64,000 bases of DNA, taken from the NCBI RefSeq assembly GCF_004803465.1, contig NZ_SRSF01000001.1, positions 372,501 to 436,500 on the forward strand, written 5' to 3'. The notes beneath the pieces were generated by a model, which was given only the letters and a program-made list of their open reading frames with translations, ran no database searches and was not told where the DNA came from. A program made the position numbers and the translations under genes. Below are positions 854 to 24,804 of this stretch, one piece after another (positions within the stretch are counted from its first letter, which is position 1; every line of letters begins with the position of its first letter). This DNA comes from Neolewinella litorea (GTDB lineage: Bacteria > Bacteroidota > Bacteroidia > Chitinophagales > Saprospiraceae).

Positions 854-2215
854 ATGCAAAAACGGCAGTACGCTGTATTCCTGTTTTCCTGTTTCCTTCT
901 ACCGTTGGCCGCGCAGGATGGCTTTGTATCCCTGACTAACGGCAAGGATCTGAGCAACTGGGAGTCCTACGGAGGGAAAGCACCCTATTCCATCGAAGGG
1001 AACACCATCACGGGCACCGCCGTGGTCAACACGCCCAACACCTTCTTGTGTACCGACCGCCCCTATGGTGATTTCGTGCTGGAGCTGGAGTTCAAAGATG
1101 AGGCGCCGCTGAATAGCGGGGTCATGGCGCGGGGGCAGTGGCGGCAGCAGGACGACCTGCGGCGTATATACGGTTACCAGGTTGAAATTGACCCCAGTGC
1201 CCGTGGGTACACCGGCGGCATATACGACGAGGCCCGGCGCGGTTGGATTTACCCCGTCCACTATAACGACCCGGCGCGCTCGGCCTACAAGCAGGGCGAA
1301 TGGAACAGTATGCGCGTGGAGGCCATCGGCAATAACCTGCGCACCTTCATCAACGGGCAGTCGGTGGCCAATCTGGTCGACGATACGGACGCCTCCGGTT
1401 TGATTTGTCTGCAAGTCCACTCCGTGGCCGACGAACTGGCCGGGAAGCAGGTACAGTGGCGCAACATCCGGGTGAAAGACAACGCTACGCCCGACGACCA
1501 CCTCGAAGCCGTGCTGGCTCCCCAGGAAAACATGCTCGTCAATACCTTGACGGAAGAAGAAAAACGGAAGGGCTGGCGCCTGCTCTTCGACGGCACGTCC
1601 ACCGACGGGTGGCGGGGTGCCAAACTCGACCAATTTCCCGCCAGCGGATGGGAAGTGGTAGACGGCGAATTGCGCGTACTGGCCGGTAACGGCGGCGAGA
1701 GCACCAATGGCGGCGACATCGTCACCGAAGATAACTTCAGCGACTTCGAACTCGTCTTCGAATTCAAGCCCACCGAAGGGGCCAACAGCGGCGTCAAATA
1801 CTTCGTGGATCCCGAACTGAACAAGGGTCGTGGTTCCGCCATCGGCCTCGAATACCAAATCCTGGACGATGAGCGTCATCCCGACGCCAAGGCCGGAGTG
1901 ATGGGCAACCGTACCATGGCCTCCCTTTACGACCTGATTCCGGCCAACCCCATCGACGTCAACCGCCGCAAGGACTACAACATCAACGACTGGAACCGCG
2001 GCCGCATCAAGGTGCAGGGCGGTAAGGTGGAGCACTGGCTCAACGGCTACAAAGTGGTGGAGTACGACCGCTTCAGCCAAATGTTTGACGCGCTGGTCAA
2101 CTACAGCAAATACAAGGACTGGGAAAACTTCGGACAGTGGCCGCAAGGACCCATCCTCCTCCAGGATCACGGCGACGCAGTTGCCTTCCGCACCATCAAA
2201 ATTCGTGAGCTTTAA
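854..2215 (+). CDS. Secreted two-domain DUF1080 (3-keto-disaccharide hydrolase) protein
   Basis: The 453-residue protein has a signal peptide (MQKRQYAVFLFSCFLLPLAAQ) and two tandem DUF1080 concanavalin-like domains. The first, about 25-210, contains FVSLTNGKDLSNWESYGG and GYQVEIDP. The second, about 238-453, contains LLFDGTSTDGW, SGVKYFVDP, GLEYQILDD and a final GPILLQDHGDAVAFRTIKI. Characterised relatives bind or hydrolyse 3-keto-glycosides. It sits 11 bp before a Tat-exported Gfo/Idh/MocA oxidoreductase, a pairing that fits oxidative sugar breakdown outside the cytoplasm. Substrate and catalytic activity are inferred; a purely binding role is possible. Confidence 0.85.
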   Translation: MQKRQYAVFLFSCFLLPLAAQDGFVSLTNGKDLSNWESYGGKAPYSIEGNTITGTAVVNTPNTFLCTDRPYGDFVLELEFKDEAPLNSGVMARGQWRQQDDLRRIYGYQVEIDPSARGYTGGIYDEARRGWIYPVHYNDPARSAYKQGEWNSMRVEAIGNNLRTFINGQSVANLVDDTDASGLICLQVHSVADELAGKQVQWRNIRVKDNATPDDHLEAVLAPQENMLVNTLTEEEKRKGWRLLFDGTSTDGWRGAKLDQFPASGWEVVDGELRVLAGNGGESTNGGDIVTEDNFSDFELVFEFKPTEGANSGVKYFVDPELNKGRGSAIGLEYQILDDERHPDAKAGVMGNRTMASLYDLIPANPIDVNRRKDYNINDWNRGRIKVQGGKVEHWLNGYKVVEYDRFSQMFDALVNYSKYKDWENFGQWPQGPILLQDHGDAVAFRTIKIREL

Positions 2216-23839: not shown

Positions 23840-24040
23840 AATAAAAAAGGCCCGCGCATATGCGCGGGCCTAAAAAAGCTTTCTAACTACCATAATAACA
23901 AAAAGTCACGGCGCATAATGCCGTTAAAAAACTTTCCTAAGTATTATTAAGACCTAATAAGGCCGAATAATATAGTCTTTGACCTTTCCCATCGGATACC
24001 GGTCGTGGCACAAGCCGTTGTTTTACATTATCCACTCCTA
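23840..24040 (-). ncRNA. Candidate small RNA, unit 1 of a tandem family
   Basis: The unit ends in a perfect 22-base palindromic hairpin (23849-23870) followed on the minus strand by TTTTTTATT, a Rho-independent terminator. Seven bases before the hairpin is the box ATGGTAGTTAGAAAG (23893-23879), nearly the same as in unit 2. The box also reads as a short frame, MVVRKLF stop. A weak -7-like TAGGAGTG (24040-24033) and a palindrome GACCCCAT-CTAA-ATGGGGTC (24064-24083) lie upstream. No protein gene runs into this terminator from the right, so it should end a short independent transcript. This is the most divergent of the three units and lacks the TGTCTCTCA box. The 5' end is uncertain. Confidence 0.5.
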
Positions 24041-24063
24041 GAACGAAGGTGGTGGGCCGGCAT

Positions 24064-24083
24064 GACCCCATCTAAATGGGGTC
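24064..24083. promoter_or_regulatory. Palindrome upstream of small-RNA unit 1
   Basis: GACCCCAT-CTAA-ATGGGGTC has an 8-bp stem and a 4-base spacer. Similar ACCCCAY-N4-RTGGGGT palindromes lie 21-22 bases upstream of the -7 elements of units 2 and 3. This one lies 23 bases upstream of the weaker unit 1 element. The position overlaps where a -33 box would be, so it may be an operator or activator site. It could also act as a hairpin just after the unit 2 terminator. Confidence 0.45.
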
Positions 24084-24088
24084 TGGGC

Positions 24089-24287
24089 AGAAAATAATGC
24101 CCCCGTCCAAAGACGGGGGCACCATATACACTTTCTGACTACCGTAAAACTAAAAAGGATAGTGGTGTCGCCAATTGACGACCACCACTGGATTGCGGAA
24201 TTACCCATAGGTAATAGCCGCGAAAATGTTATTTGAAATATAGGCTTAACTGAGAGACACATTGAACAGGGAAATATCCCTAATAAT
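24089..24287 (-). ncRNA. Candidate small RNA, unit 2 of a tandem family
   Basis: The -7 element TATCTTTG (24301-24294) predicts a start near 24287. The body has an early hairpin AGGGA-TATT-TCCCT, then TGTCTCTCA (24259-24251), 34 bases after the -7 element. A second hairpin has CAATTG at its tip (24161-24189). Next comes the box ACGGTAGTCAGAAAG (24145-24131). The terminator is GCCCCCGTC-CAAA-GACGGGGGC (24099-24120, as written on the plus strand) followed by ATTATTTTCT. The length is about 200 nt. A 74-codon frame crosses the terminator hairpin and is unlikely to be a gene. Unit 3 shares the layout and spacing, which argues for homologous RNAs. The target is unknown. Confidence 0.55.
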
Positions 24288-24293
24288 CTGGAT

Positions 24294-24301
24294 CAAAGAT
24301 A
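24294..24301 (-). promoter_or_regulatory. -7 element TATCTTTG of small-RNA unit 2
   Basis: An exact TAnnTTTG match on the minus strand with no protein start codon nearby in a convincing frame. A CCCCAC-AAAC-GTGGGG palindrome (24324-24339) stands 22 bases upstream of it. The plus-strand gene to the right starts almost 600 bp away, so this element serves the intergenic minus-strand transcript. Confidence 0.55.
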
Positions 24302-24323
24302 TTGGGGCAGAAACGACCCGCCC

Positions 24324-24339
24324 CCCCACAAACGTGGGG
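24324..24339. promoter_or_regulatory. Palindrome upstream of small-RNA unit 2
   Basis: CCCCAC-AAAC-GTGGGG has a 6-bp stem and a 4-base spacer. It occupies the same place relative to the -7 element as the palindromes of units 1 and 3. The arms differ by one base from those (CCCCAC instead of CCCCAT), and both arms changed together, so pairing is kept. Confidence 0.45.
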
Positions 24340-24560
24340 TTAATCGCAATTTTCCCAAATTATATCCAATTATTTTTCCGTAACCCGCCGGCTGGCCTCT
24401 GTGCGGATATAACTGGTCGAAAGCATCGGCCGAGATTGGGTTGGCCCACCTTTTGGGTCACCTACACCTCTCACTCGCCGCGTCTGACGACGACGGTGAA
24501 CACCACCAGGGGCGGCCAATTGGCGGTGTTTAGCATCCGATAACTAATGCGATTGGGGCA
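24340..24560. other. Spacer between small-RNA units 2 and 3
   Basis: There is no convincing gene here. A hairpin with arms AACACC (24499-24504) and GGTGTT (24525-24530) encloses the palindrome GCCAATTGGC (24515-24524). This echoes the CAATTG-tipped hairpin inside unit 2 at 24161-24189, so the stretch may contain a decayed fourth unit. A short plus-strand frame over the region does not resemble a protein. Confidence 0.3.
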
Positions 24561-24751
24561 TAAAAAAGGTCCGCACGTTGCACCGTACGGACCTAAGTCT
24601 TAAATCGTCTACTGGTAACTGTCCAGTGGGCCGTAGGCCCGGAAATACTTCTAGGAAAAAGGTGCAGGAGGTTAAAAGGACTCCCTACTCCCGTGAGTAA
24701 ATAGGTTTATAAATGAGAGACAAAATGGGGAAGAAACAGATCCTTCCGTTG
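24561..24751 (-). ncRNA. Candidate small RNA, unit 3 of a tandem family
   Basis: The -7 element TAAATTTG (24765-24758) predicts a start near 24751. A GGAAG...CTTCC hairpin comes first, then TGTCTCTCA (24722-24714), 35 bases after the -7 element, as in unit 2. The terminator is a 9-bp stem with one mismatch (24568-24593) followed by TTTTTTA on the minus strand. The predicted length is about 190 nt. The sequence after TGTCTCTCA also resembles unit 2 (TTAT-AACCTATTT against TTAAGCCTATATTT). No protein frame is shared between the two. This is the clearest partner for unit 2. Confidence 0.55.
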
Positions 24752-24757
24752 TTAGGA

Positions 24758-24765
24758 CAAATTTA
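24758..24765 (-). promoter_or_regulatory. -7 element TAAATTTG of small-RNA unit 3
   Basis: An exact TAnnTTTG match on the minus strand. A run of nine G on the plus strand (24774-24782) and the palindrome at 24787-24804 lie directly upstream, where a -33 box would be expected. No TTTG -33 is seen. Confidence 0.5.
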
Positions 24766-24786
24766 GAATGCCTGGGGGGGGGTGGC

Positions 24787-24804
24787 ACCCCATGATGATG
24801 GGGT
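24787..24804. promoter_or_regulatory. Palindrome upstream of small-RNA unit 3
   Basis: ACCCCAT-GATG-ATGGGGT has a 7-bp stem and a 4-base spacer, and stands 21 bases from the -7 element of unit 3. It has the same arms as the unit 1 palindrome. It also lies about 90 bp upstream of the plus-strand macrodomain gene, so it could serve both directions. Confidence 0.45.

Follow-up and report, generated by a model that had tools for sequence, protein, structure and literature searches.

Most of what is known about small-RNA circuits comes from proteobacteria. The response regulator of the Gac system belongs to the NarL/FixJ-type class, and its sensor, GacS, is a hybrid carrying receiver and phosphotransfer domains. 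Qrr and LhrC are small RNAs present in multiple copies, and SroC is said to be a sponge small RNA that acts on GcvB. In the GacS/GacA - RsmX/Y/Z system of Pseudomonas, several small-RNA genes are each preceded by a palindrome (PMC2375449), and in sigma-A promoters of Flavobacterium psychrophilum a TAnnTTTG box stands at -12 to -5 (PMC9723704).

The window considered in this study, a 64,000-nucleotide stretch of the genome of Neolewinella litorea, contains on its minus strand (23843-24804) three tandem units, each consisting of a palindrome, an apparently non-coding body of about 190-200 nt and a terminator-like end. As in Gac/Rsm, a palindrome that precedes several small-RNA genes goes together with a response regulator, and this belongs to the class of the Gac one, but the palindrome itself is a different one. 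Unlike GacS, the three sensors that were scanned (L144, L148 and L149, all from other genomes) consist of propeller repeats (Reg_prop), Y_Y_Y, HisKA_3 and HATPase_c, with no match to a receiver or phosphotransfer domain. The genome (98.78% complete) gave no match to CsrA in a search that finds it in 3 of 14 control genomes, nor to Hfq in one that finds it in 5 of the 14, and both results speak against membership in Gac/Rsm, even though the control logic is similar. Several unpaired GGA motifs are a mark of the Gac/Rsm system; in the RNAs here GGA, counted regardless of structure, occurs 0-6 times per RNA.

As with sponge small RNAs such as SroC, pairing with the seed of another small RNA is predicted here, but here a tandem gene dedicated to the purpose and under the control of a sensor would serve as the sponge, in a genome where Hfq finds no match. 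The array resembles Qrr or LhrC in that several similar small RNAs would stand under one signal system, and differs from them in phylum and in class of regulator (sequences were compared through Rfam only). Rfp18 and other small RNAs of F. psychrophilum come from the same phylum, in which sigma-A promoters carry a TAnnTTTG box; they are set apart by their description, which in its available part connects them with neither a palindrome nor a two-component system (PMC9723704). Searches of an open-access library brought up no description of small RNAs from Saprospiraceae, nor of this system.

The explanation that I favor as a whole, at a probability of roughly 55%, starts from a sensor whose propeller and Y_Y_Y parts would presumably be extracellular and whose HisKA_3 kinase would signal to a NarL/GerE-type response regulator. 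The regulator would bind the palindrome, centered at about -42.5 to -44.5, and activate sigma-A transcription of the array, units 1 and 2 above all, and of a solitary relative, RNA S. Unit 1, joined in some genomes by unit 2, would expose a box able to pair with the seed of T, a conserved small RNA of wider distribution; unit 1 would thereby titrate T and free its mRNA targets, while unit 3 and S would act on other partners. The genes, their conservation, the promoter, its association with the regulator and the complementarity can be read in the DNA. More tentatively, at a little under even chances, the whole may constitute a complete regulatory module new to the Bacteroidota, in which a propeller-sensor two-component system has as its main output small RNAs that duplicate, one of them sponging an older, near-invariant small RNA, without Hfq or CsrA. 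Sequence alone is enough to name the sensor, the promoter code, the RNAs and a candidate partner RNA, and this makes signal, regulator and RNA-RNA pairing directly testable in cultured marine bacteria, the named Neolewinella strains.

Three tandem units and their conservation

The array is flanked by a DUF547 gene on one side and a macro-domain gene on the other. Its features are given in Table 1. The initial annotation had proposed three palindromes of consensus ACCCCAY-N4-RTGGGGT, each with a -7 element and a terminator. The palindromes are all there (unit 2 differs by one end base), as are the -7 elements of units 1 and 2, while the weak one ascribed to unit 3 has no TAnnTTTG, either here or in eight syntenic genomes. 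The terminators of units 1 and 3 reappear in a list of terminator-like sites (6 in the scan, as against a shuffled mean of 2.0), from which that of unit 2 is missing. A scan for the sigma-70 consensus was uninformative (3 found, 1.5 expected). Internal sequence had also been said to link units 2 and 3, and indeed the 3' block GGTAGTYAGAAAG is present in both. A 5' block, GTCTCTCA, is common to units 1 and 2.

Table 1. Features of the array, in coordinates of the window.
Feature	Position	Strand	Remarks
Unit 1 palindrome ACCCCATCATCATGGGGT	24787-24804	-	proposed response-regulator site, core centered at -42.5
Unit 1 -7 box TAAATTTG	24758-24765	-	22 nt from palindrome core
Unit 1 small RNA, about 192 nt	24562-24753	-	start inferred
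Unit 1 5' box GTCTCTCATTTATAAACCTA	24702-24721	-	complementary to RNA T seed
Unit 1 3' module common to RNA S, with terminator carrying GUGCAA hexaloop	24561-24641	-	R1 match, E 1e-4
Unit 1 terminator hairpin	24567-24594	-	terminator scan; covarying stem
Unit 2 palindrome ACCCCACGTTTGTGGGGG	24323-24340	-	one end base deviates
Unit 2 -7 box TATCTTTG	24294-24301	-	22 nt from palindrome core
Unit 2 small RNA, about 199 nt	24091-24289	-	start inferred; R1 match only E 0.2
Unit 2 5' box GTCTCTCA	24251-24258	-	single 8-nt block complementary to RNA T
Unit 2 terminator-like hairpin, weak T tail ATTATTTT	24099-24120	-	absent from terminator scan list
Unit 3 palindrome ACCCCATTTAGATGGGGT	24065-24082	-	pattern match
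Unit 3 small RNA	23843-24031	-	start assumed from palindrome spacing; without TAnnTTTG box
Unit 3 3' module common to RNA S	23842-23922	-	R1 match, E 1.4e-6
Unit 3 terminator hairpin	23848-23871	-	terminator scan

Ten genomes among the 60 searched (own genome counted) yielded homologous DNA, all within one genus of 21 genomes, called Neolewinella here after its named relatives. Nine of the ten have all three palindromes and the tenth (G014) has one, so the array as such is found in 9/21 genomes of the genus. The TAnnTTTG box lies 21-24 nt from the palindrome core of unit 1 in all nine and 22-24 nt from that of unit 2 in eight. Unit 3 has the box in none of the nine; a constant CGTT takes its place (window 24036-24043; L030-L037), and its palindrome is kept in all nine, up to one mismatch. 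Unit 3 may use another sigma factor or some other start.

The last 95 nt or so of unit 3 (window 23842-23940, minus strand) are strongly conserved. This 3' region contains a predicted 11-bp helix, AGUUUUUUAAC/GUUAGAAAGCU, which is invariant in the alignment and so gives no covariation signal either way.

Instead of small RNAs, the units could conceivably be leaders, genes for short peptides or repeats due to chance. Such a reading could draw on the two weak elements (the -7 region of unit 3 and the tail of unit 2) and on short peptide pieces common to homologous units in some frames, SLIYKPI-like in 5/9 copies of unit 1 and CYYGS ends in 4/9 of unit 3, which arise because the nucleotides are constant. 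Conserved coding frames, named beforehand as evidence that would count against small RNAs, were sought in 27 homologous units: the longest open reading frames vary in start and length and none is constant in both, and the coding explanation was rejected on these grounds. Together with the covarying helices (see below) and the invariant blocks, this leaves leaders, peptides or chance repeats very improbable. The initial annotation, which had seen in the locus a tandem group of paralogous small RNAs, is supported in this by the layout in nine genomes, by the covarying helices and by the model built from S, as far as DNA alone can tell, and the units are in all likelihood real small-RNA genes. 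The regulator, the genus-wide relative S and the complementary RNA T go beyond that annotation.

The family had been called unrecognized, and Rfam (including 6S, Flavo-1 and Bacteroidales-1) gives no match at the gathering cut-off, either in the window or in 18 related loci. Permissive searching produced only sub-gathering matches over terminator hairpins, such as ncS54 (34.4 bits, where the gathering cut-off is 43), and these were set aside.

RNA S and the common 3' module

The palindrome core CCCCAYNNNNRTGGGG occurs four times in the 4.4-Mb genome (reversed control, once), three times in the array and once at the head of a solitary structured RNA of about 210 nt, S, in which five hairpins with constant stretches between them can be made out by reading. 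A model of the 3' half of S (R1), built from 16 sequences and without array units, finds S in 21/21 genomes of the genus, five of whose copies (those of G006, G007, G010, G011 and G012) lie outside the model. Palindrome and -7 box precede S in the sequences of G006, G007, G010 and G012. The copy in G011 is L106.

Within the array, R1 matches unit 3 best and unit 1 next (Table 1), against a background in which a plus-strand terminator is matched at E 0.032; the match to unit 2 is not significant, and this unit is tied to its relatives in the array by synteny and common blocks only. A model of the 5' half of S (R2) has no match to the array units, its best in the window standing at E 0.68. The part in common is thus the 3' module. 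RNAs of other genera are reached by R1 and R2 only at E 0.13 or worse, and R2, giving no significant match, was rejected as a link from S either to the array or to those RNAs. Past the palindrome, 12/30 family loci have a AAGCGTGTTTA-like motif, as S does, and 5/30 have CTAAACTCCAG; such short motifs are what suggests a link between S and RNAs of other genera.

The helices of the 3' half covary. In the MAFFT alignment of S the score is 0.315 (shuffled 0.154, equaled in 0/500 shuffles; one other measure of covariation was reached by 8/500), and in a structure-fitted alignment that includes the array units it is 0.449 (shuffled 0.186, 0/500). The score of the 5' half also exceeds all 500 shuffles, with two of the five measures reached by 40/500 and 208/500. 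Among the array units, helices covary in unit 1 and little in unit 3 (3/28 pairs). As far as can be told from sequence, the array units are diverged paralogs of the genus-wide RNA S.

A GUGCAA loop closed by at least three pairs recurs in these RNAs, in hairpin P1 of 15/17 copies of S, in the terminator of 9/17 copies of S and in the terminator of 9/9 copies of unit 1, and the stems beneath the constant loop vary in step. This is the pattern one might look for if the RNAs titrated an RNA-binding protein through repeated hexaloops, as Rsm RNAs do. The hexaloop is found, though, in 0/9 copies of unit 2 and 0/9 copies of unit 3, the genome has no CsrA match, and no protein is known to receive such a loop, all of which makes protein titration improbable.

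The palindrome promoter and the response regulator

Across the 21 genomes of the genus the core by itself occurs 87 times as compared to 32 for the control, so that lone sites elsewhere can be due to chance. The full promoter, CCCCAY-N4-RTGGGG followed at 22-24 nt by TAnnTTTG (spacers of 20 and 21 nt were also allowed, with 24 the upper limit), gave 59 sites in 43 of 298 genomes of the family and none with the pattern reversed. The spacer is 22 nt in 8 sites, 23 in 46 and 24 in 5, and 20 or 21 nt in none. A stricter pattern run over the phylum found 1 genome of 296, own genome alone, a count to be taken as a lower bound since the pattern misses the CAC form (it finds nothing in G017, which has sites of the full pattern). 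The palindrome is centered at -42.5 in units 1 and 2 and at -44.5 in S, with its 24-nt spacer, and LuxR-like activators sit at about such positions. These figures depend on the -7 box being placed at -12 to -5, as given for F. psychrophilum (PMC9723704).

Thirty promoter loci of the family were read by eye: a short terminated RNA follows in about 21 of them and a gene in the others, which suggests a mixed regulon of RNAs and mRNAs. The same promoter stands before protein genes in L043, L044, L045, L053, L055, L056, L059 and L102, and several of the protein genes under it have, by eye, signal-peptide-like starts. In other genera (L150, L057 and L149, the last of these being the same place as L054) the palindrome promoter stands twice in tandem and goes with another conserved RNA, AGGCTTTAACGTAACACAC. 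A third type of RNA, GTTACGTAAGGGGGAATC, follows the promoter in L046, L060 and L063, upstream of what by eye is seemingly the same gene in all three.

One of the genes headed by the promoter encodes a NarL-type response regulator, with the palindrome directly before it. The regulator of own genome has the domains Response_reg and GerE, and its nearest solved chains are VraR and NarL. In a first test a regulator at E<=1e-47 was present in 19/19 carriers of the promoter and in 5/20 other genomes. An alignment of 14 regulators was then run against the same 298 family genomes. At E<=1e-85, a cut-off chosen after the list was seen, the regulator is found in 41/43 carriers and, without the strict promoter, in 31/255 non-carriers (Fisher 3e-28, a value that overstates the association because the genomes are related); at 1e-55 the figures are 42/43 and 84/255. 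The carrier G302 has the palindrome promoter without a regulator match at 1e-55, and the carrier G230 reaches 3e-73 only.

Palindrome and regulator lie on the same strand less than 5 kb apart in at least 13 of the 43 genomes, from positions compared by hand (G033, G065, G072, G080, G087, G100, G130, G152, G154, G162, G194, G224 and G312). In 10 of the 14 regulator loci that were read, the regulator has a long gene resembling a sensor no more than 2 kb away (L144-L150 and L152-L154); apart from the three that were scanned, the sensors were recognized by length and likeness only. In L145-L148 the genes for regulator and sensor are followed by the palindrome, in L149-L150 those for sensor and regulator by two palindromes. 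The palindrome is absent from 8 of the 14 loci read, including all three of the array's genus. In a collection of named strains, 9 of 80 regulator loci have palindrome and -7 box (reversed control, 0) and 71 lack the palindrome within the stretch covered, but at least six of the nine are identical to DNA among the loci already analyzed and a seventh, L190, shares its coordinates with G087, which deprives the comparison of independence. Among named strains, the nearest relatives of own regulator belong to Neolewinella and Lewinella. Own genome has, at the cut-offs used, one match to the regulator (on contig C12) and one to the sensor (on C5, 54% identity over its length). Regulator, sensor, S (on C37) and T are all on contigs other than that of the array; regulator and sensor are unlinked, and regulator and T, both on C12, are about 430 kb apart.

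The 31 genomes of 255 with the regulator and no strict promoter are what one would expect if the palindrome were bound by another regulator, with the response regulator a mere fellow traveler. Against this stand the same-strand neighbors within 5 kb, seen in 13 or more of the 43 carriers, and the palindrome directly before a regulator gene, and I judge a different regulator to be quite unlikely. It is the response regulator that very probably binds the palindrome, and with only slightly less assurance it can be proposed to act there as an activator, so that the two-component system probably drives the RNAs of the array.

RNA T and the direction of its proposed pairing with unit 1

RNA T came to light as four weak R1 matches, in genomes that yielded no array, which proved to be a different terminated RNA. 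Hairpin and terminator, rather than complementarity, led to T in these four; the 15 other genomes come from a search pattern derived from the box. The T 22-mer TAGGTTTATTTTTCATGAGAGA has a single occurrence in each of 19 genomes out of the 21 of the genus (in own genome at G000:C12:16053-16074, minus strand), the two without it being G010, which is 55% complete, and G011. Aligned, the T sequences hardly differ over some 46 nt, 22 of which were required by the search, whereas their terminator stem varies. A permissive Rfam scan of four T loci returned sub-gathering matches only. Four T RNAs were folded: the 22-mer is predicted to be unpaired in own genome and G001, and the seed to be partly paired in two genomes without the array.

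In unit 1 the conserved 5' box, paired at its first few bases in the predicted fold of the unit, is complementary to the T seed over 17-20 Watson-Crick pairs in two blocks in 9/9 genomes, and shuffled sequences never reached this (0/40 in each of the nine). Unconstrained RNAduplex energies of the full-length RNAs, a cruder measure, did not set unit 1 apart: 5 to 95 of 100 shuffled versions of it did as well or better in the nine genomes. Unit 2 has a good match to T in 5/9 (G001, G004, G007, G009 and G012), one block in three and none in G020; its 8-nt block in own genome is no better than shuffles. No consistent excess of complementarity to T was found for unit 3 in nine genomes (best G004, reached by 2/40 shuffles) or for S in seven (best G020, 4/40). 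Unit 1 is likely to pair with T in vivo, and unit 2 may more weakly be proposed as a sponge for T.

Complementarity is symmetric, and the same two-component control would serve equally if unit 1 were the regulator and T its decoy or target, with the RNAs of the array acting directly on mRNAs. This reversed direction is the main rival, a real if rather unlikely possibility. A site in G007 adds to it: complementary to the T seed (L281, 1501-1525), it lies over the in-frame ATG of an open frame (1414-2130, plus strand), so a box of this kind can sit as in an mRNA. Speaking for the sponge is the unequal distribution of the two partners, for with T in 19/21 genomes and the array in 9/21, the T seed is conserved without the array, and it is on this basis that the array is taken to be the sponge. 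I lean accordingly, though with less conviction than for the pairing itself, to T rather than unit 1 as the RNA that would be titrated. If this is true, the uneven spread would show how gene duplication gives rise to a sponge.

The site in G007 is possibly an mRNA target of T, if that ATG is the start. In G019, where no array was found, a separate TCTCTCATTTAAACCTA precedes another copy of GTCTCTCA, with a terminator-like hairpin after it (L272), and this stretch is perhaps an independent sponge. The gene upstream of T in L274 (1751-2770, minus strand) encodes a protein with sub-threshold helix-turn-helix matches only, and in L245-L248 the 3' end of what by eye is a similar-looking gene precedes T.
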